NCBI RefSeq assembly: GCF_001029285.1
Contig: NZ_LDZY01000007.1
Location: forward strand, 62,001-126,000
Direction: 5' to 3'
Length of the DNA: 64,000 nt
Source: Desulfosporosinus acididurans
Lineage (GTDB): Bacteria; Bacillota; Desulfitobacteriia; Desulfitobacteriales; Desulfitobacteriaceae
Part shown: positions 7,079-56,551 of the stretch, in pieces
How the letters are laid out: every line of letters starts with the position of its first letter
Numbering within the stretch: the first letter of the stretch is position 1
The notes under the pieces: generated by a model
What the model was told of the DNA's origin: nothing
The model's database searches: none
Seen by the model: only the letters and a program-made list of their open reading frames with translations
Position numbers and translations under genes: made by a program

Positions 7079-8210
7079 CGTTGTCATTATCGGCGGCGGA
7101 ATTACAGGCTGCGCCTTAGCTTATGAAATGGCCCTGCGGGGTGTCCAAGACATTGTCGTTATTGAAAAACAATACCTTGCTTCGGGAGCAACAGGACGCT
7201 GCGGTGCCGGAGTGCGGCAGCAATGGGGGACAGAAACCAATGCTATTCTTGCCCGGGACAGCGTAAAACGTTTCGAATCCATGAATGAAGAACTTGATTA
7301 TGACATGGATATTGAATTTAAACAGGGCGGCTATCTAATGGTTGCCTATACTGAAAGTGAATGGGAACAGTATAAAAAAAATGTGGCTGTCCAGCATAGT
7401 CTGGGGATTTCCACTAAAATGATTACGCCTCAAGAAGCTCAGGAAATTGTACCTCATTTGAATATCAACAGTTTGGTCGGTGCGACCTTCTGTCAATCAG
7501 ACGGTCATGCTAATCCTTTTCATGTGGTTGATGCCTATTATAAAGCAGGGCGGCGGCTCGGGGTCAACTATGAAACCTATACGACGGTTACTGGCATCAA
7601 ACGGGAGAAGGGTAAAGTCACCGCCGTTCAGACGACGAAAGGGGAAATTAACACTTCCATCGTCATTAACGCCTGCGGATTTGCCGCCGGTACAATTTGT
7701 AAGATGGTCGGCTTTGATCTCCCGCTTTATCCGCAGCGGCACCAAGCACTGGTAACTGAGGCTGTCGAACCCTGCCAAGGTCCTATGGTCATTTCCTTAC
7801 ACCATCGTCTGTACTGTCAGCAGACGCCTCACGGCAGTTTTATTATGGGGGTGGGCGATCCCAACGAACCGAAAGATTTTAATATTCATTCCAGTTGGGA
7901 GTTCCTTGAGGACGTTGCCCGTCAAGCTATCACTGTTTTGCCTCTTTTAAAGAATCTCCGTGTCGTCCGGCAATGGTCGGGGCTTTATGATATGAGTCCG
8001 GATGCCAATCCGATTTTCGCTGAAATTCCTGACGCCCAAGGAATGTGGGTAGCCGCAGGATTCAGCGGCCATGGCTTCATGGTCGGTCCCCAGACAGCCG
8101 TTCTTTTGGCGCAGAAAATTCTCGGTCAAGAATGTTTTATGCCCATTGAAAAATTTGGTCTAGACCGTTTCCGCCGGGGAGAGTTATTGCTTGAGCCAGC
8201 CGTCGTCTAA
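7062..8210 (+). CDS. DAO-family FAD oxidoreductase, likely L-proline (imino acid) dehydrogenase subunit
   Basis: D-amino-acid-oxidase-fold flavoenzyme (NVVIIGGGITGCALAYE at the N-terminus, ATGRCGAGVRQQWG flavin region), close to HcnC, sarcosine oxidase beta and the beta subunit of dye-linked proline dehydrogenase. It should be the catalytic subunit that oxidises a secondary amine or amino acid; adjacency to HypD and P5C dehydrogenase points to L-proline giving P5C, although a hydroxyproline isomer or sarcosine is possible. TTG at 7062 is chosen because GGGGGG lies about 7 bases before it. Last gene before repeat A. Confidence 0.83.
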   Translation: MQKTANVVIIGGGITGCALAYEMALRGVQDIVVIEKQYLASGATGRCGAGVRQQWGTETNAILARDSVKRFESMNEELDYDMDIEFKQGGYLMVAYTESEWEQYKKNVAVQHSLGISTKMITPQEAQEIVPHLNINSLVGATFCQSDGHANPFHVVDAYYKAGRRLGVNYETYTTVTGIKREKGKVTAVQTTKGEINTSIVINACGFAAGTICKMVGFDLPLYPQRHQALVTEAVEPCQGPMVISLHHRLYCQQTPHGSFIMGVGDPNEPKDFNIHSSWEFLEDVARQAITVLPLLKNLRVVRQWSGLYDMSPDANPIFAEIPDAQGMWVAAGFSGHGFMVGPQTAVLLAQKILGQECFMPIEKFGLDRFRRGELLLEPAVV

Positions 8211-8242
8211 AGTGGCCAGGATATAGTGCGATCCTCAAACAA

Positions 8243-8323
8243 GTGAAATCGTTCAGCTAAAGCCGAATATTGGGGCTTCAGATACCCACCCCCACTTATA
8301 GAAAAGGGGGTCTTAAAAACCGG
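8243..8323 (-). repeat. Dispersed structured element, copy A (short form)
   Basis: Read on the minus strand it starts after ATTTAT, has a CCCCC...GGGGG hairpin, then CTGAAGCCCC, then the terminal hairpin CGGCTTTAGCTG and ends GATTTCAC. At 81 bp it is the shortest complete copy; it lacks the inner variable arm of copies B and C. It fills most of the gap between the dehydrogenase operon and pruA. Confidence 0.65.
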
Positions 8324-21232: not shown

Positions 21233-22618
21233 TTAATGGCCGGCAAGTTCTCCTTCAATCCAGTCGACAAACTGTCTTGCGGTGCGCGCTGAACGTCCGT
21301 TATACCAAAGAGCCCATTGCAGAGCTTCTTTGTGTAATGTTGTCTGATCAATGGCCAAGTTTCGGTGGGAGGCAATTCCCTCGACAATCTTGAGGTATTG
21401 CTTTTGGTCCGGAGATGAGAACACAACATTGATGCCAAATCGATCAGCAAGGGATAACTTTTCCTGCATACTATCACCGGCGTGAACTTCTTCCTCACGA
21501 TTACTGGATTGTAAGCCAGCTCTTTCGCTGAAATATTCTTTCACTAGATGGCGGCGGTTGGACGTTGCATAGATGAGGATATTGGAGGTTTTGCTTTCTA
21601 AGCCTCCTTCGAGAACAGCTTTGAGAGAGGTATAGTTTTCTTCGTTGTCTCCAAAAACCAGATCATCGACGAAAAGAATGAATTTTTGCGATCGGTTATG
21701 CAGAAGTCGAAGAATTTGGGGGAAATCAGCCAAAAAGGCTTTGGGGATTTCAATCATGCGCAGTCCCAGAGGATGATATTCATTGAGGATTGCTTTGACT
21801 GTTGAGGATTTGCCGGTTCCCCGGTCTCCATAGAGAAGCACGTTGTTGGCTGGATAGCCTTTAAGAAATTGCCTCGTGTTTTCCAGAACCCGGGAACGTT
21901 CATCATGGTAATCGACTAAGTCACGCAGGGTAATGGGGTCGGGTCTTTCAACGCATTTAAGGCTGCCGCGGCCTTCAGTTCTCTCCCAAATAAAGGCGAT
22001 ACTGCGGGCAAAGATACCGCACCCATACTGACGATGAAACTCTTTGAGGTCTTGCAGGCAATCGCCCCAGCAGGTGCTTGTAAGAAATTTTTCTTTTAAG
22101 GTACGTAAATGTTCGGGTTCGCGATTGACTAATAGGGTCGGAGAAAACTCCCAATCAGGCAGGATTTGCAGGAGCGATTCCGGGAAAGTGCCTGCGTCGT
22201 CTGGATAATTTCCTGTGTTGTTATTTTTATAGAGTTTTGCTATTTCGGCTTTTAAGGTTGTTGAATCAAGCTTGGCTATGGTTTCAAGGTTTTTCAAGTC
22301 ACTGACAACTGCTTGATCAAGGGTATTTTCCGGCATTGACGGGTGCATCGCCTGGGCATTAAAGGAAAAAGAGTTTTCTGCAAAAATGAGTTGGTTAAGG
22401 ATATGGTGAGAGAGGGAAAGCCCAGGGCACTTAGCAAGCTCGAAGTAAAAATCATTGTAATAATTAATAATGTCCCGTAATTGAAGATCCATCTTCTCCA
22501 AACCTGCAAGTAACTCTCTGAGTTTTCCAAGTACGGAGTCTTCCAAAAGGTTACGGTAAACGGAAAGGGAATCAAGGGCTAATAAAAATAAATTAGTGCT
22601 GCTGCAGCTTCTATTCAT
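21233..22618 (-). CDS. DUF815 AAA ATPase
   Basis: P-loop ATPase of 461 residues. The C-terminal half is the DUF815 domain: Walker A LLYGDRGTGKSS, Walker B FILFVDDLVFGDNE, sensor IYATSNRRHLV and a late arginine-rich RSARTARQF. The N-terminal half is helical and without known motifs. ATG at 22618 follows GGAGGAG; an upstream in-frame start lacks a site. Function unknown. Divergent from the MutS-like gene across about 240 bp. Confidence 0.85.
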   Translation of the reverse strand: MNRSCSSTNLFLLALDSLSVYRNLLEDSVLGKLRELLAGLEKMDLQLRDIINYYNDFYFELAKCPGLSLSHHILNQLIFAENSFSFNAQAMHPSMPENTLDQAVVSDLKNLETIAKLDSTTLKAEIAKLYKNNNTGNYPDDAGTFPESLLQILPDWEFSPTLLVNREPEHLRTLKEKFLTSTCWGDCLQDLKEFHRQYGCGIFARSIAFIWERTEGRGSLKCVERPDPITLRDLVDYHDERSRVLENTRQFLKGYPANNVLLYGDRGTGKSSTVKAILNEYHPLGLRMIEIPKAFLADFPQILRLLHNRSQKFILFVDDLVFGDNEENYTSLKAVLEGGLESKTSNILIYATSNRRHLVKEYFSERAGLQSSNREEEVHAGDSMQEKLSLADRFGINVVFSSPDQKQYLKIVEGIASHRNLAIDQTTLHKEALQWALWYNGRSARTARQFVDWIEGELAGH

Positions 22619-36307: not shown

Positions 36308-37240
36308 ATGGATAAGATTTATATTGTTGGTCATAAAAACCCAGATACAGATTCAGTTTGCTCCGCAATTGCTTTAGCTCGTTTAAATGAACTTACCGGC
36401 GCTGAAAATTGTGTTCCTGCTACAGCAGGCAAAATCAATAAAGAGACTGAGTTTGTTCTCAACTATTATGGAGTTGCAGTTCCTGAAGTTTTAGGGTCTG
36501 TTGAAGCTAAACAAAAACTTATCCTTGTAGACCACAATGAATATGGTCAAGCTGTTGCAGGTGCAGATCAAGCTCAGCTTGTACAAATCGTTGACCACCA
36601 CAAAGTTGGCGGATTCCAAACCGCTGAGCCTCTTTATGTACGGATCGAACCAGTTGGCTCTACCTGCTCCATTGTTGCTCAAGCCTACAAGGAAAAAGGT
36701 TTAGTGCCTGAAAAAGCTATCGCTGGTATCTTACTGTCTGCAATTCTTTCCGATACAGTTATTTTCAAATCCCCAACCTGCACTGAGTCGGATAAAGTTA
36801 TTGCTGCTGAACTGGCAGCTATTGCCGGCGTTGATCCCAAAACCTTTGGTGTTGAAATGTTCAAAGCCGGTTCCAATATCGCTGAGCGTACCCCGCAAAG
36901 CATGATTGAAGAAGACTTCAAAGCCTTCACCATGGGATCCAACAAGATTGGTGTCGGTCAAGTCAGCTTAATGGGCATGGATGGATTTGAAGACGTACGG
37001 GCAAACTTAAATAAAGGACTTGAAGACTATCGTGTTGCTCAAGGCCTGCGTTATATCTGCTTAATGGTTACCGATATTTTAAGTGACTATACCGAATTGA
37101 TCGTTAAAGGGGATAAGCCGGAAGAAGTTGCTAAAGCTTTCGGCAAAGAACTCGTAAATGGCAGCGTTGAGCTTCCAGGTGTTCTGTCCCGTAAAAAACA
37201 AGTTGTTCCGCCAATGACAACTTATTTTTCAGCGAACTAG
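36308..37240 (+). CDS. ppaC: Manganese-dependent inorganic pyrophosphatase
   Basis: Family II pyrophosphatase (DHH superfamily), 310 residues, hydrolysing PPi to drive biosynthesis. Motifs GHKNPDTDSV, LVDHNEYGQA and the DHH motif VDHHKVGGF; C-terminal DHHA2 domain with SRKKQVVPP. It lies 40 bp after pcrA and is followed at once by repeat B, whose first base is the last base of the stop codon. Confidence 0.96.
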   Translation: MDKIYIVGHKNPDTDSVCSAIALARLNELTGAENCVPATAGKINKETEFVLNYYGVAVPEVLGSVEAKQKLILVDHNEYGQAVAGADQAQLVQIVDHHKVGGFQTAEPLYVRIEPVGSTCSIVAQAYKEKGLVPEKAIAGILLSAILSDTVIFKSPTCTESDKVIAAELAAIAGVDPKTFGVEMFKAGSNIAERTPQSMIEEDFKAFTMGSNKIGVGQVSLMGMDGFEDVRANLNKGLEDYRVAQGLRYICLMVTDILSDYTELIVKGDKPEEVAKAFGKELVNGSVELPGVLSRKKQVVPPMTTYFSAN

Positions 37241-37352
37241 TGAACTCGTTCAGCTAAAGCTGAACTTCGGGGCTTCAGATGGGGATTCTACCCCACCTGA
37301 AGTTTACGAAGGACCTACCCCCACTTATAGAAGTGGGGGCCTTAAAAATAGG
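37240..37352 (-). repeat. Dispersed structured element, copy B
   Basis: On the minus strand: preceded by ATTTAT, hairpin CCCCCACTTCTATAAGTGGG, stem AACTTCAGG/CCCTGAAG-like pairing with an inner TGGGG/CCCCA arm, then CTGAAGCCCCGA, terminal hairpin GTTCAGC-TTTA-GCTGAAC, and end GAGTTCAC. 113 bp, and starts exactly at the ppaC stop codon. Confidence 0.7.
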
Positions 37353-42886: not shown

Positions 42887-42899
42887 ACTTAACGATGAA

Positions 42900-43077
42900 G
42901 TGAACTCGTTCAGCTAAAGCTGAACATCGGGGCTTCAGATACAATAATGTCCAGTGGACATTATTGCCGAGCCGCCTTTCCCAATAGGAATACTTAGCGG
43001 CGAAGGAGGACTCTACCTCACCTGAAGTTAACAAGGGACCCACCTCCACTCATAGAAGTGGGGGTTTTAAAAACTGG
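42900..43077 (-). repeat. Dispersed structured element, copy C (long form)
   Basis: Same ends as copies A and B: ATTTAT on the minus-strand left, CCCCCACTTCTATGAGTGGA hairpin, right end CTGAAGCCCCGATG, GTTCAGC-TTTA-GCTGAAC, GAGTTCAC. The middle carries an extra perfect palindrome (CAATAATGTCCA and TGGACATTATTG around one base) and a GCCGCC/GGCGGC-type arm. 178 bp. Confidence 0.7.
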
Positions 43078-51011: not shown

Positions 51012-51179
51012 ATGAATTCGCTCTTGCGGGCGAATCAACCTCCCTCTGGAATACCAACTCCAGTTTATGATTATGCGAAAGAGGAACGAGATATAGTTTT
51101 TGCAGAGAAAAGGTTATTGGACAGAATGGATACCTGGATTTACAATGAGCTGGAATACATTGGGGAGGAAGAAAGGTGA
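51012..51179 (+). CDS. Small 55-residue protein coupled to rlmD
   Basis: Continuous frame MNSLLRANQPPSGIPTPV...WIYNELEYIGEEER whose TGA overlaps the rlmD GTG (GTGA). The acidic, amphipathic composition looks real, but the ATG lacks a close ribosome site. A second ATG at 50993, with TAGG before it, opens another frame (MKQPSIDEFALAGEST) that stops after 25 codons, so a frameshift within an originally longer gene is possible. No family recognised. Confidence 0.4.
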   Translation: MNSLLRANQPPSGIPTPVYDYAKEERDIVFAEKRLLDRMDTWIYNELEYIGEEER

Positions 51180-52558
51180 AATCAAAGTATCCGGTTAATG
51201 GGAAAGCCAATGCCATCGGTGTAATTGAATTGGAATGCCTTCGTCTTTCCTCGGACGGAATGGCTGTGGGATATTATGAGGGCAAAACTACCTTTGTGCC
51301 TGGCCTGCTGCCCGGGGAAATAGGCCAGGTTCAGATTGCGGAAGCAAAGAAAAACTGGCAGCGTGGAAAATTGCTAAAGATTTTAAAGAAATCTGTAGAC
51401 CGGGTCAACCCTCCTTGCAGTGTTTACTCTGTTTGCGGCGGCTGCCAAGTGCAGCACCTTAAGTATGAGCAAACTTTAGTCTGGAAGAGACAGTGGGTGG
51501 CCGATGCTCTTGCCAGAATCGGTAAAATACAACTGGATAATGCTAAGATTCATCCTACTATTGGGATGGATTATCCCTGGCGCTATCGCAACAAAGCCCG
51601 GCTCCATTGGGGAGAACCGGGCATCATTGGTTATTATCAGGGAAAAAGTAAAGCGACGGTTCGGTTTAGTGACTGCCTTTTGATCAGTGAAAAAATGAAT
51701 CGCTGGGTAGAGGAAGTGGAAAGGCTTCTGAGCAAACAGAACGAGAAATCCCTTTCCCGGCTGACCTCGCTTACCTTCAGGGAAAATTCTCAAGGAGAAG
51801 GAATGCTGATTTTGGATTCCATGGAAAATGTTTCTCTGAGGGAAAGGGATGATTTTTTATCAGATGCACAGAAGTCTGGGGTATCGTCCGAGCCCGACGA
51901 AGAAAGGAAAGGGACAGTACATAATGAAATTGGCTTAGGACTCCGCTGGATCTGGAGCATCAACAGTTCAGGAGAACCGGTGCGCATCGCAGGTCGGGGG
52001 AATTTCACCGAGAGCGTGTTGGAAGCTGAGTTCAAGATCTCTCCCTTGGCCTTCCTGCAAATCAATCCTGCTCAGACCCGCAGACTTTATCAAACGGTGT
52101 TGGATTGGGCAGAGCTTTCAGTTGAGAAAGTAGTCTGGGATCTTTACTGCGGAATCGGGACTATCACCTTGGCTTTAGCTGCAAAAGCCAAAAAGGTCTG
52201 GGGAATTGAAGAAAACCCCTACGCTGTGAAAGATGCCAAGGAAAATGCTAAGCATAACCGAATTGATAATGTAGAGTTCATTGCTGGAAAAGTGGAGGAT
52301 ACCTTCCGTCAAATCATCGACCAACCGGATATTGTAGTTCTCGATCCTCCCCGGGCCGGAGCCCACAAGAGCGTGTTAGAACGATTGTTGGAATTGAAGC
52401 CGGAGCAGATCATCTATGTCTCCTGTGATCCAGGGACATTGGCGCGGGATCTTGGGATATTGCAGAACGGGGGATACCAGGTGGCTGAGGTGCAACCAGT
52501 GGATATGTTTCCGTGGACGGTGCACGTTGAGAGCATCGTTCGCCTCTTGCTTTTTTGA
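51176..52558 (+). CDS. rlmD: 23S rRNA (uracil-C5)-methyltransferase, RlmD/RumA type
   Basis: TrmA-family RNA methyltransferase, 460 residues. TRAM domain about 12-70; iron-sulfur cysteines CSVYSVCGGC; SAM motif WDLYCGIGTITLALA; catalytic cysteine VSCDPGTLARD. GTG overlaps the preceding small gene. The extreme C-terminus is unusual: HVESIVRL is followed by only LLF and stop, while a copy of the same 21 bases at 53651 continues in frame with ERKHND and stop. That suggests the original 3' end was displaced by an insertion. RlmD or a paralogue such as RlmCD cannot be separated by sequence alone. Confidence 0.92.
   Translation: MKSKYPVNGKANAIGVIELECLRLSSDGMAVGYYEGKTTFVPGLLPGEIGQVQIAEAKKNWQRGKLLKILKKSVDRVNPPCSVYSVCGGCQVQHLKYEQTLVWKRQWVADALARIGKIQLDNAKIHPTIGMDYPWRYRNKARLHWGEPGIIGYYQGKSKATVRFSDCLLISEKMNRWVEEVERLLSKQNEKSLSRLTSLTFRENSQGEGMLILDSMENVSLRERDDFLSDAQKSGVSSEPDEERKGTVHNEIGLGLRWIWSINSSGEPVRIAGRGNFTESVLEAEFKISPLAFLQINPAQTRRLYQTVLDWAELSVEKVVWDLYCGIGTITLALAAKAKKVWGIEENPYAVKDAKENAKHNRIDNVEFIAGKVEDTFRQIIDQPDIVVLDPPRAGAHKSVLERLLELKPEQIIYVSCDPGTLARDLGILQNGGYQVAEVQPVDMFPWTVHVESIVRLLLF
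52526..52546 (+). repeat. 21-bp direct repeat within the rlmD 3' end, candidate att core (left)
   Basis: Encodes VESIVRL. An exact copy lies at 53651-53671. In streptococci the rum/rlmD 3' end is a known target of serine-recombinase elements. Confidence 0.6.
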
Positions 52559-52578
52559 GAAGAAAGTTGGTAAGCTAA

Positions 52579-53484
52579 TTGGCACAAAGTGTGGATAACA
52601 AGAAAAGCAAAACAATAGCTGATAGAGTATTTGTGGTAACAGAGTGCAGCGGTTTATTGGATTTTTTAACACTTAAGTTAACTAATCAATCAAGAAATAA
52701 CATAAAGTCTTTGCTCACACACAGACAGGTTAATGTGGATGGGCGTGTCGTTACGCAGCACGACTTTCCTCTGAAAGAGGAACAGACGGTACGGATAGTC
52801 CGTTCGGTAATTCGGGGGCAAAAAGAGAAAGATGTGCTGCAAATTTTATATGAGGATGCTGATTTGATCGTAATCAATAAGCCGGCTGGCTTGTTGGCTA
52901 TAACTGATAATAAAAATGGGGTTTCCGCTTATCATTTGCTGACGGATTATGTGCGCCGGGCTAACCCGAAAGCCCGTATCTTTATTGTTCATCGTCTGGA
53001 CCGGGATACCTCCGGGGTGCTGATGTTTGCCAAAAATGAAAAGTTGAAACTAGCGTTGCAAGATAATTGGGGCGGCCTTGTAACGCAACGGGGTTATGTG
53101 GCGATTGTGGAGGGACGACTAAAAGAAAAAAGCGGTAGAATTCGCTCCTGGCTTAAGGAAACAAAGACGCTGCTTGTGTATTCCAGCCCAAAGGTGGGGG
53201 ACGGTTTGGAGGCCATTACGAATTATCAAGTGATCAATGAAACCCAAGACTATTCGCTGTTGAATATTCAACTGGAAACAGGTCGCAAGAATCAAATTCG
53301 AGTGCATATGAAAGAATTAGGGCATTCTGTCGTGGGCGATACCAAATATGGTGCTAGAACTAATCCTTTAAAGCGATTAGGGTTGCATGCGCACAAACTG
53401 GAATTTAGGCATCCTTTTGCTAATCAGTTGTTGTGCTTTGAAACAGAAGTACCGGAGAATTTTAAAGCGTTAATAAAGCTCTGA
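52579..53484 (+). CDS. RluA-family RNA pseudouridine synthase
   Basis: 301 residues: N-terminal S4 domain about 25-85 (RNNIKSLLTHRQVNVDG), catalytic domain with FIVHRLDRDTSGVLMFAKN (catalytic Asp) and RKNQIRVHMKELGHSVVGD. Modifies uridines in RNA; the site is unknown. TTG at 52579 is assumed, with a poor ribosome site; GTG at 52591 is possible. It lies entirely between the two 21-bp repeats that flank the rlmD end, so it may be passenger DNA of an inserted element. Confidence 0.88.
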   Translation: MAQSVDNKKSKTIADRVFVVTECSGLLDFLTLKLTNQSRNNIKSLLTHRQVNVDGRVVTQHDFPLKEEQTVRIVRSVIRGQKEKDVLQILYEDADLIVINKPAGLLAITDNKNGVSAYHLLTDYVRRANPKARIFIVHRLDRDTSGVLMFAKNEKLKLALQDNWGGLVTQRGYVAIVEGRLKEKSGRIRSWLKETKTLLVYSSPKVGDGLEAITNYQVINETQDYSLLNIQLETGRKNQIRVHMKELGHSVVGDTKYGARTNPLKRLGLHAHKLEFRHPFANQLLCFETEVPENFKALIKL

Positions 53485-53491
53485 CGAAATT

Positions 53492-53692
53492 GTGGCAGCA
53501 TGCCAAGAATTACATACTGCCTTGGATAGATATCAAGGAATACTTACGAGGATAAAAGAGGAAAAATGATTAGATAAAATGGCCTCGGGTATTGTGCTGT
53601 AGGCTAAGAGAAACAAATTTTTCGAACATGTACCCGCGAACACACACCATGTTGAGAGCATCGTTCGCCTCGAAAGAAAACACAACGACTAA
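53492..53692 (+). repeat. Remnant block 1: att-like copy of the rlmD 3' end with flank
   Basis: Holds GCAGCATGCCAAGAATTACA, GAACATGTACCCGCGAACAC and the 21-bp core at 53651-53671, then codons for ERKHND and TAA at 53690. The upstream part also occurs at 55310-55412. The rest of the gap to 53919 shows no gene. Confidence 0.55.
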
Positions 53693-53919
53693 ATATGGAA
53701 AAAGTCCAGTGGTGTAACCACTATATATAGCGGTTTTGGTAAAAAATTATGTGTTTCTCTGTACTGCAAGAGTAGTGTGGGGAAACATTTTTTTACAGTT
53801 TTGCGTCAGAATTATGAAACTCCGTTACTTTGAACCTTAGGAGTATGTCGGAAAATGCGAATTGAATTAAGAAATTATTTGGATAATAGATTAGAAGAAC
53901 AATGGTAAAAGGAGGTTTG

Positions 53920-54117
53920 ATGTTAATGAGTATATTTACAGAGCTAATAATCAGAGGGGTCCTCGTTATTGCGTTAAATGATAGTATTATACTTTACGTG
54001 GTTAAAAAGCGTTCTTCTCCAATAACTATTCCTTTAATTTTAGAAATAACTATAGTAACTAGTGTCGCATTAGTAATTAACATTTGGTATTGTCTTAAAA
54101 AGAATGGAATAATTTGA
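53920..54117 (+). CDS. Small hydrophobic protein, two membrane helices
   Basis: 65 residues; helices about 4-25 and 40-58. The ribosome site AAAGGAGG is strong, four bases before ATG 53920 and ten before ATG 53926. No family recognised. It lies in the scarred region between the two repeat blocks, possibly a passenger gene. Confidence 0.5.
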   Translation: MLMSIFTELIIRGVLVIALNDSIILYVVKKRSSPITIPLILEITIVTSVALVINIWYCLKKNGII

Positions 54118-54261: not shown

Positions 54262-55146
54262 ATGCAAAAAATTGTTCCGCATTTATGGTACGACACGGAG
54301 GCCAAAGAAGCGGCCCTGTTTTATACCAGTTTATTTGACCAATCGAAACTATTGGATGTAACAGTTATAGAAAACACCCCATCAGGTGACGCAGAAAGTG
54401 TAAGTTTTGAGTTAGCCGGACAGCAATTTAAGGCGATCAGTGCTGGCCCTTTCTTCAAATTCAACCCTTCTATTTCCTTGATGGTCGCTTGCTACTCAAT
54501 AGAAGAGGTGAATACCAAGTGGAGAGCATTATCTGAAGGGGGAACGGAATTAATGCCATTGGGTGAATACCCCTTTAGTAAGCGGTATAGCTGGGTCCAG
54601 GACCGGTACGGTTTATCCTGGCAGTTGATGCTTACCGACCATGGCCAAAGTGTTCAAAAGATTACCTCCAACTTGCTTTTCTCAGATGAATCATGCGGGA
54701 AAGCTGAAGAAGCTGTAAGGTACTACACTGGGGTCTTTGGAAAATCGGAAATAGGGACAATCAGCAGATATAAAGAAGGAGAAGCAGAGTTACCAAAGGC
54801 AAAAATAAACTATGCTGCATTCAAACTGAACGGTATCGCTTTTTCTGCGATGGACAACGGCTTTGATGTGGATTATGGTTTTAATGAAGCATTTTCACTC
54901 ATGATAAATTGTGAGGACCAGAAGGAGATTGATTACTTCTGGGACAAGCTCTCTGCCGTACCTGAAGCTGAACAATGCGGTTGGGTCAAGGACAAGTTTG
55001 GAGTATCGTGGCAAATTGTACCTGCGATAATGGATGAAATGATGAAATCTGGTGACAGAAAACGATTACAGCGGGTGACAGAGGCGTTCCTGAAAATGAA
55101 GAAATTTGATGTGGACGCTTTGCAAAAAGCTTATGAAGGGATTTAA
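54262..55146 (+). CDS. Tandem VOC-superfamily (PhnB-like) protein
   Basis: 294 residues with two glyoxalase/bleomycin-fold halves: PHLWYDTEAKEAALFYTSLF...WVQDRYGLSWQL and LLFSDESCGKAEEAVRYYTGVF...WVKDKFGVSWQI. This double form is often annotated PhnB or 3-demethylubiquinone methyltransferase-like, but its substrate is unknown. ATG follows AAGGAGGAG. Flanked on both sides by similar remnant blocks, so it may have arrived by transfer. Confidence 0.85.
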   Translation: MQKIVPHLWYDTEAKEAALFYTSLFDQSKLLDVTVIENTPSGDAESVSFELAGQQFKAISAGPFFKFNPSISLMVACYSIEEVNTKWRALSEGGTELMPLGEYPFSKRYSWVQDRYGLSWQLMLTDHGQSVQKITSNLLFSDESCGKAEEAVRYYTGVFGKSEIGTISRYKEGEAELPKAKINYAAFKLNGIAFSAMDNGFDVDYGFNEAFSLMINCEDQKEIDYFWDKLSAVPEAEQCGWVKDKFGVSWQIVPAIMDEMMKSGDRKRLQRVTEAFLKMKKFDVDALQKAYEGI

Positions 55147-55309
55147 GGTGTAACACTAAGACAACAGTTAGAATACCGGTTGACGTGTAAAATCAAAGGA
55201 TTAACAATCGATAAGGAAAATGCAACTGGCCAATAGGTCAGTTGCAATTTAGTTTAGTAGAGATGTTCATTTTTGATTCAATCGTCTCTTTTCTAACTGA
55301 TCCTAAACT

Positions 55310-55412
55310 GTAGCAGCATCCACGAATTACATACCGCCTTAGAACAAGGCCTCCGAAATTGTGGTTGGGTCTAGAAAACAGCATTTTTGGAACATGTACC
55401 CATGAACACACC
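55310..55412 (+). repeat. Remnant block 2, similar to block 1
   Basis: GCAGCATCCACGAATTACAT, then GGCCTC..AATTGTG and GAACATGTACCCATGAACAC match block 1 with indels. After ACACACCA the copies diverge: block 1 enters the rlmD core, block 2 enters the recombinase fragment. Confidence 0.55.
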
Positions 55413-56551
55413 AAGAAGAAAGTTCGAACTTGTCACAGATCACTAAGATGGGAATAAGTTACAGGTTTCAAGAGGGTAAGGTATTAGTTAACCACAATAA
55501 ATTCCTCGGCTATACCAAGGATGATCAGGGTCAGTTAGTTATTGTGCCGGAAGAAGCTGAAGTGGTACGCCGGATATATCGAGAGTTTTTGAATGGTAAA
55601 AGCCCTTATAAAATTGCTGCAGATTTACAAAGGGATGGGATAATCACAGGGTCAGGTGGTTCGCGTTGGTATGATAGTACTGTGATTGGTATCCTTAAAA
55701 ACGAAAAATATCAAGGCGATGCTCTACTTCAAAAAACCTATACGGTTGACTTTTTAAGTAAAAAGCGTGTAAATAACAATGGCCATGCTGCCCAATATTA
55801 TGTTGAAGAGAGCCATCCGGCGATCATTTCCAAAGAAGAATTCGCTGCAGCGCAAGCAGAATTTCAAAGACGTTCAAATATGCGCGGGTACTCAAGAACA
55901 GGGAAAAGTGCTTATACCAGTGAGTATGCCTTTTCAGGGAAACTTTATTGCCAAAAGTGTGGCTCTAAGTTTAGAAGATCAGCCTGGGGCACGGGGAAAA
56001 ATAAAAAGTACGTTTGGATATGCATAAACCATCAGATAAACGGAAACTCTGCATGTGATCAAAAGTCGGTCAAGGAGAAAGATTTGGAGAAGGCGTTTGT
56101 TAGAGCGATGAACTGGGTTATTAATAGAAAAGAAATCTATTTGGAAGAACTTTCAAGAGACATATACCATGGTCTTGAGCCGATAGCTGAAGAATATACA
56201 ATGGAAGAGCTTTACGCCCGCCTGGAGAACTTGCAAGAGAAAATGAAGGGATTGGTAAAGCGGAGTATAAAGGCTGGAAATGTTGATGAGAATGGACATT
56301 CAGTTCTTGGCGCAGAAATAGAAAAAGTGCAAAACAGGATGAAAAAGCTTAAAGAACAAATAACTGAACGGTCAATGCGGCAAAAAAGGGTGGAAGAGTT
56401 CAGGGAATTTCTAGTGTTGCAGGAGGGTGGAATTGATAGGTTCGACGATGTATTATTTCGGAGGTTCGTTGATAGTGTGGAAGTGCAATCTATGGTTGAG
56501 GTAGCGTTTTTGTTTAAGGTTGGCGTTGAAGTGAGGGAGGTCCTTGGATAA
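55406..56551 (+). pseudogene. Large serine recombinase lacking its catalytic domain
   Basis: The frame begins at a junction with repeat block 2 and reads SNLSQITKMGISYRFQEGK..., which is where the recombinase domain starts in full-length large serine recombinases; the roughly 130-residue resolvase domain with the catalytic serine is missing. Present: recombinase domain (FLGYTKDDQG; GILKNEKYQGDALLQKTYTV), zinc ribbon with CQKCGSKF and later cysteines (CINH, CDQ), and a C-terminal coiled coil. A TTG at 55430 could start translation of a non-catalytic protein. Most likely a relic of the element that used the rlmD end. Confidence 0.85.

Follow-up and report, generated by a model that had tools for sequence, protein, structure and literature searches.

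The 3' end of rlmD, which encodes a 460-amino-acid (aa) RlmD protein, is present twice in the 64-kb stretch of Desulfosporosinus acididurans DNA analysed here (hereafter the window), and the interval between the two copies holds a gene of the RluA family of pseudouridine synthases, a remnant of a Spo0E-like gene and a short arm resembling part of the rlmD end (Table 1). A second interval, bounded on its left by the displaced copy of the rlmD end, carries a PhnB-like gene and closes on a truncated recombinase gene. An earlier note, based on the letters of the window, had described the first interval as the scar of an element that integrated in the 3' end of rlmD and supplied a new terminus. Integration was supported by comparison with related genomes, in which ends like the displaced one are native to rlmD and the DNA at the left end of the second interval recurs; the scar can be refined, as the comparative data show a pattern that points to a system of stackable modules.

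The repeated rlmD end and the two modules of the window

A direct-repeat search of the whole window (repeats of at least 20 nt, exact seed of 18) returned two families, one of which lies at the rlmD end. The sequence GTTGAGAGCATCGTTCGCCTC (21 nt) occurs exactly at both 52526-52546 and 53651-53671, which confirms the duplication given in the earlier note. Extended leftwards, the repeat covers 52523-52546 and 53648-53671 with 23 of 24 bases identical, 21 of them consecutive, the sole mismatch being the third base (CAC/CAT); the spacing from start to start is 1,125. Copy 1 translates as H-V-E-S-I-V-R-L-L-L-F-stop and closes the open RlmD frame, and copy 2 (53648-53692) as H-V-E-S-I-V-R-L-E-R-K-H-N-D-stop. 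The other family is an unrelated 42-nt repeat in three copies (88-100%) at 8242-8283, 37239-37280 and 42899-42940. The closest named relatives of the window RlmD are those of Desulfosporosinus sp. FKB (85%), D. hippei (75%) and strain HMP52 (74%). A second rlmD in the same genome was considered as the source of the copy and rejected, there being one full rlmD and one other, distant match (23%).

Table 1. Features of the rlmD region, in window coordinates, with the basis of each assignment
Feature	Coordinates	Strand	Basis and remarks
rlmD, 460 aa, ending HVE-SIVRLLLF-stop (H450-V451-E452)	51176..52558	+	TIGR00479, E 2.8e-113
Target half-site within rlmD, GTGGATATGTTTCCGTGGACGGTG	52499..52522	+	Same stretch in rlmD genes of relatives; conservation partly imposed, as the locating pattern spans the half-site
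CA opening the His450 codon, putative crossover dinucleotide and left module boundary	52523..52524	+	Type A dyad centre; junctions
Repeat copy 1, followed by the putative module-supplied tail LLF-stop up to 52558	52523..52546	+	Repeat comparison
RluA-family pseudouridine synthase, 301 aa, TTG start as called, cargo	52579..53484	+	PF00849, E 7.9e-30; TIGR00005, E 1.1e-58
Spo0E-like gene remnant, last 28 codons and stop	53483..53569	+	80% DNA identity to the L137 right end
Right arm of the RluA module, type S, GAACATGTACCCGCGAACACACAC, resembling the rlmD half-site	53624..53647	+	Sequence comparison
Repeat copy 2, putative displaced older RlmD tail HVESIVRLERKHND-stop	53648..53692	+	Boundary between the RluA module (its right end) and the next module (its left end)
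Intrinsic-terminator-like hairpin and T-run behind the displaced tail	53751..53788	+	Terminator scan; kept in relatives
71-aa open reading frame, membrane-like by eye, second module	53902..54117	+	Same frame in L136 and L137; no Pfam match
PhnB/glyoxalase-like protein (PF06983), second-module cargo	54262..55146	+	E 1.7e-72
Right end of the second module: degenerate Spo0E-like 3' end with type S arm	55296..55411	+	Sequence comparison
Large serine recombinase, C-terminal part from codons QEES at the module boundary	55412..56551	+	PF07508, E 2.3e-25; PF13408

The RluA interval holds one open reading frame (ORF) of at least 100 aa. It lacks relaxase, conjugation and mobilisation genes, and no recombinase piece was found between 52523 and 53648 with a model built from five recombinases. 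The earlier note, which placed only an RluA-family gene between the repeats, had overlooked the Spo0E-like remnant and the right arm. These two, which form the right end of the interval, are 80% identical over 171 bp to a module end in another genome (locus L137, genome G017), where a 63-aa open relative of the remnant gives a weak match to PF09388 (E 0.004, 17.6 bits, cut-off 23). The left end is cut short after CGCCTC, that is, after 24 bp, and the terminator scan listed no terminator on the + strand between 52558 and 52747. Because this left end has lost its terminator, the RluA gene may be co-transcribed with rlmD from the rlmD promoter. Homologues of the RluA protein at 45-49% are present in 21 of 28 other genomes of the genus, none closer, and as far as both genes were placed they do not lie beside rlmD.

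The hairpin behind the displaced tail forms a 15-pair helix in a consensus of eight copies, with one pair changed on both sides. The PhnB module that begins there was found again in L136 (94%) and L137 (90%) with different flanks; its right end was seen only in the window and L137, the match in L136 stopping at window position 55196. Both L136 (DUF4256) and L137 contain a 178-aa ORF at the point corresponding to window 53906/53907 that the window copy lacks. The recombinase fragment beyond the module (55412-56551) is without a resolvase domain, and its match starts at the boundary.

Tail exchange and the probable attachment site

Relatives were retrieved by peptide patterns, six in all and including QPVDMFPW, which lies immediately ahead of the site; such retrieval favours a conserved upstream end and leaves the tails untouched. 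From 26 rlmD candidates tried in Desulfosporosinus, 23 were usable (L037 is cut off, and L039 and L041 fall outside the pattern), and these 23 genes carry 21 distinct tails. Relative to the CA of the histidine codon, the majority-base fraction was 0.69 at -60 to -31 and 0.91 at -30 to -1, the high value just before CA being partly imposed by a locating pattern that spans bases -24 to +2; behind CA it was 0.85 (+2 to +8), 0.55 (+9 to +29) and 0.43 (+30 to +59). Tail and upstream DNA differ in their relationships. Between D. lacus (L029) and D. nitroreducens (L031) the upstream 300 nt agree at 97% and the tails are unrelated, and the genes of Gracilibacter (L046) and Pelotomaculum (L103) share 62% upstream and 97% over 60 nt of tail DNA. 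Among 2,775 pairs tested, 66 had tail DNA at least 75% identical, and in 49 of these the upstream DNA was at most 70% identical.

The earlier note would have been refuted by relatives that end natively in LLF; none of the 22 other rlmD genes of the genus has this ending. Alignment of the C-termini of relatives identified ends like ERKHND as native to rlmD elsewhere, namely TVVLLQRKHTT in L034/G024, TVVCLNRKHS in L036 and TVVRLHRKHI in strain HMP52. In L034/G024 the DNA from this end onward, including the terminator region, is 70% identical over 152 bp to copy 2 of the window. The ERKHND copy with its downstream block also recurs away from rlmD, where several left flanks join it at the same meeting point; a constant junction with varied left flanks is what site-specific recombination would leave.

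In thirteen left ends of the ERKHND type the alignment holds from about the CA to the right, the left flanks being of several kinds, and CA itself is present in 11 of the thirteen. Right ends of the kind seen in the window (type S, for Spo0E-type) are nearly constant up to about GAACACACCA and divergent after it. They were matched only in Desulfosporosinus (14 of 45 genomes of the family, one of nine genera); most matches cover the Spo0E-gene part alone, the arm part being matched in G000 (the window's own genome), G017 and G016. Genome G032 has, between the modules that follow its rlmD, a right arm of another and commoner kind (type A). A weight matrix of this arm gave 83 hits, including some places counted twice, in 1.14 Mb of collected loci and none in reversed sequence. 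With at most three mismatches the 26-nt arm is present in 37 of 73 genomes of the order, in which a reversed control pattern was found in none, and in none of nine further genomes of the class beyond the order.

Type A arms away from rlmD were directly followed by an RlmD-like tail in 31 of 43 cases (34 loci), a count that is partly circular for the seed loci because the arm model was trained on tail-adjoining sites, and that retains six hits not beginning with CA, some of them the reversed dyad. Ten rlmD-like arms, nine with a tail, prove little, having been located by a pattern that contains the CAYGTNGAR codons, and two of them are rlmD fragments. Family f3, which contributed no seeds, had an RlmD-like tail behind 22 of 29 arms, compared with 67 of 7,547 background CA positions (0.9%) taken from three of the loci (binomial 1.1e-39). 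At 33 type A sites, with tails chosen for H-x-E/K codons, the arm matched the reversed tail DNA at 0.403 when centred on CA, against 0.252 (standard deviation 0.015) for shuffled tails.

Because the junctions switch near CA and the type A dyad is best centred there, strand exchange most likely takes place on the CA of the histidine codon in the H-V-E motif of RlmD. The GA of the glutamate codon, a first guess from conservation, was rejected, since both the type S right ends and the junctions with the recombinase gene place the change of sequence left of GA, near CA, and CA is the best centre of the type A dyad.

If exchange occurs at the CA of His450, it is the module that would supply Glu452. 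This residue of the window RlmD aligns with E424 of RumA (1uwv), which we take to be the catalytic base of the Escherichia coli enzyme; a literature search on E424 of RumA found no paper. The conserved glutamate is kept in all 82 resident rlmD genes, these being the ones located among 88 loci by a pattern that does not extend to the glutamate codon, as against 58 of 66 internal sites (Fisher p 0.0012), a difference that selection acting on the resident tail alone would produce. Behind the type A arm there is also a different left end, CACKTTGGYGTTACTTC, which is without the glutamate codon. It was seen in G005 (oriented position 22284), L239 (1757, - strand) and L247 (7218), at internal sites only and at none of the 82 resident genes.

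Modules and arrays behind rlmD in related genomes

Taking modules as the intervals between successive sites on the same strand, we counted 36, with a median of 3.4 kb and a range of 0.1-11 kb, in a sample that is not random, as loci were chosen for holding sites. Five site positions that the motif scans miss were added by hand (window 53648, L006 6654 and 6769, one in L138 and one in L140). With the five-recombinase model, no serine-recombinase piece was detected in 31 of the 36 modules, and one holds a full-length recombinase of 419 aa. ORFs of at least 100 aa within modules are co-oriented with the sites in 114 cases and opposed in 14. A row of seven modules in 31 kb lies behind rlmD in G005, the sequence of which matches the D. 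lacus record L029. Genome G032 has two, a 3.9-kb recombinase module directly behind rlmD and then a 10.8-kb module with ABC-3C-type genes; the domains of its 419-aa recombinase (PF00239, PF07508 and PF13408) identify it as serine type, and no search aimed at IntI was made. Cargo of the counted modules, among the families listed, includes Hachiman HamA and HamB, GmrSD, RhuM, RelA_SpoT, KAP NTPase, PhnB-like proteins, WYL regulators, DJ-1/PfpI, GNAT and HipA. Beside sites but outside the counted modules lie TIR and SIR2-STALD genes (L137) and a QueC-like gene (L138).

Orientation was counted in nine single-contig genomes in which the place of rlmD is known, leaving aside the hits in G029 and G068. 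In these nine, 25 of 29 arms run in the direction of rlmD and 21 lie downstream of it within 250 kb. Modules of L138 and L140 share a RelA_SpoT-domain gene (96.7% over 1,150 bp); its setting and the module limits differ between the two. The window's own genome has 12 PF07508 hits, and as eight of these are in open frames of more than 500 aa, potential trans-acting recombinases are present.

Several further observations concern these arrays. On the contig of the window (G000:C7), pairs of long recombinase frames (525-564 aa) at 187-189 kb and 220-223 kb lie between rlmD and distal sites and are possibly larger integrated elements. Two RlmD-tail sites with a gene-free spacing of 115 bp (L006 6654 and 6769, corresponding to G000:C7 236,653 and 236,762) are among the distal sites; they lie 122 kb downstream of rlmD and share its direction, and another contig carries one more remnant (L007, about 6190). 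The island of this genome may thus reach at least 122 kb beyond rlmD. A similar empty unit of 113 bp is present at L135 9566-9679. Four places show a large serine recombinase gene interrupted at one and the same set of codons (QEES, at CA), namely window 55412, L006 10473, L138 about 10044 (- strand) and L145 7981. Three of these keep C-terminal sequence only and one the N-terminal part only, running into an RlmD-like tail; the C-terminal part in L145 adjoins the 3' end of a tmRNA (7631-7982). The recombinase gene may itself hold an attachment or target site. Fragments of the rlmD 3' end of about 50-150 codons occur elsewhere in G014, G002 and G008 (L149-L153), several of them opening a row of modules, and are perhaps portable target sites.

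Origin of the RluA module and relation to known systems

The RluA interval is probably a recombinase-less mobile module of 1,125 bp that integrated in the 3' end of rlmD by serine-type site-specific recombination and changed the tail of RlmD from ERKHND to LLF. Comparison of loci shows the repeat, the swapping of tails, the module boundaries, the stacking and the scarcity of recombinase genes in modules. A large serine recombinase like the one with an open frame behind rlmD in G032 would mobilise the modules in trans. Strand exchange would probably fall upstream of the conserved glutamate codon, so that the incoming DNA would bring the rest of the histidine codon, the valine, the conserved glutamate and a new tail, some left ends also bringing a terminator behind that tail. 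With glutamate and tail re-supplied by the module, rlmD would keep an open frame and stay a target, and modules would therefore pile up behind it with the newest nearest to rlmD. In the window, the older PhnB module would first have given RlmD the tail ERKHND together with the terminator at 53751-53788; the RluA module would then have entered the same site, pushed the ERKHND tail 1,125 bp downstream and left LLF in its place.

Several points weigh against this interpretation. The data are comparative, and excision, a circle or an empty-site strain was not observed. Two of the 13 left-end copies are without CA at the proposed exchange point (CG in L006_b, CC in L141_b), and the pattern used finds no tail behind 12 of the 43 type A arms remote from rlmD or behind seven of the 29 arms in the independent family f3. 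In the dyad test a shift of -3 gives 0.364, the next best value among shifts from -4 to 4, and the choice of tails for H-x-E/K codons fixes some of the compared bases. The type S site of the window shows no dyad (0.25) and resembles the rlmD half-site, so that rules derived from type A may not carry over to it, and the type A arm (at most three mismatches) is absent from the window's own genome. The orientation count has eight exceptions among its 29 arms (G032 and G010 with two each, G028 with four), which fail to combine the direction of rlmD with a place at most 250 kb downstream. The stretch shared by the RelA_SpoT modules stops short of the sites on either side. Finally, the RluA module could be the product of an internal deletion in a larger element.

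This last reading differs from the one preferred here only in how the module became small. A larger integrative and conjugative element (ICE), integrative and mobilisable element (IME) or phage with its own recombinase would have entered rlmD and later shrunk to the RluA gene and its ends, the recombinase-less modules being wrecks. The Spo0E-like gene reduced to 28 codons and the left end cut after 24 bp fit such a history, as do the broken recombinases in and beside arrays, and in streptococci the rumA elements carry their own integrase (PMC4701971). Against it, no recombinase piece was detected in 31 of 36 modules, and two other genomes contain the recombinase-less PhnB module between different flanks, which would point to movement of the already reduced form; this recurrence is weakened by the L136 match that stops at 55196, the right end being common to the window and L137 only. 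The RelA_SpoT stretch common to two genomes says little, as the module limits differ. We regard deletion from a larger element as possible, with the balance of the evidence tilted away from it.

The 3' end of rlmD/rumA is already known as a site of serine integrases (PMC4701971, PMC11578063). In the streptococcal study, single serine integrases insert ICEs in rumA, exchange the gene ends and change the sequence and length of the C-terminus (PMC4701971). The streptococcal elements thus share with the window the target gene end and an altered C-terminus of RumA/RlmD, whereas they bring their own conjugation genes and integrase, with one attachment (att) site in the integrase gene, and the modules described here are mostly recombinase-less, 0.1-11 kb in size and arranged in rows. 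A serine integrase of its own, as in the rumA ICEs and IMEs, is lacking in the RluA module and present in the G032 element. The genus Dehalobacter is a relative. In a report on that genus, the rumA 3' end bounds an island of 100-400 kb of nested recombinase elements, and the authors were unable to delimit and classify the inner elements (PMC11578063). The gene end and the long variable region behind it are the same in both cases; here the arm-CA-tail site marks the boundaries. Prophage DNA with the RlmD gene at its flank has been described from Erysipelothrix and other Gram-positive bacteria (PMC12785378).

Cassette chromosomes offer a second comparison. SCC and ECC elements target rlmH by a serine recombinase at the 3' end of an rRNA methyltransferase gene, and have multiple att sites and inverted repeats in attR (PMC6222049). 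The likeness would speak for an SCC-type island that happens to use rlmD; as to the repeats, a dyad was seen at the type A sites, with tails chosen by codons, and not at the type S site of the window. We consider such an island very improbable: the target is rlmD (TIGR00479) and not rlmH, 43.8 bits is the highest score of the window's recombinase fragment with the CcrA, CcrB and CcrC models (cut-offs 700-900), and the module median is 3.4 kb compared with 21-78 kb for ECC (PMC6222049). The modules also differ from SCC/ECC, with their Ccr recombinases and much larger size, in that the tail varies between modules.

An origin of copy 2 by local duplication of the rlmD end, the RluA gene having been inserted by illegitimate or homologous recombination with no site-specific system, is scarcely credible and was rejected, for although rlmD 3'-end fragments do occur elsewhere in some genomes (L149-L153), copy 2 is preceded on its left by a module right end, known from another genome, and not by rlmD DNA, and boundaries lie at the same place in many loci.

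In relatives the rlmD spot collects whole rows of modules, in a manner reminiscent of an integron. The likeness lies in rows of small, mostly co-oriented, recombinase-less cassettes behind one fixed point. Integrons use a tyrosine recombinase (IntI) and folded attC sites. In contrast, the recombinase found behind rlmD is of the serine type (G032), and the site is a translated gene end. Among the literature matches listed, the portions available contain no description of rows of small recombinase-less modules bounded by RlmD tails.

The boundary rule that emerges (a 26-nt arm ending in CA, codons H-x-E, 4-30 residues and a stop) is usable on genomes of the order and exposes rows of defence and other accessory genes behind the rlmD/rumA hotspot. 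More tentatively, we suggest, as something possible rather than probable, that the rlmD 3' end serves as a permanent docking platform in Desulfosporosinus and related genera, on which trans-mobilised recombinase-less modules carrying defence systems or single metabolic or regulatory genes would stack, each encoding a working RlmD end with the glutamate in its own half-site. Bad tails would be selected against, so that the host enzyme would act as a quality check on docking. RlmD itself, a housekeeping enzyme that methylates rRNA, appears to receive both its tail and its last conserved active-site residue from mobile DNA.

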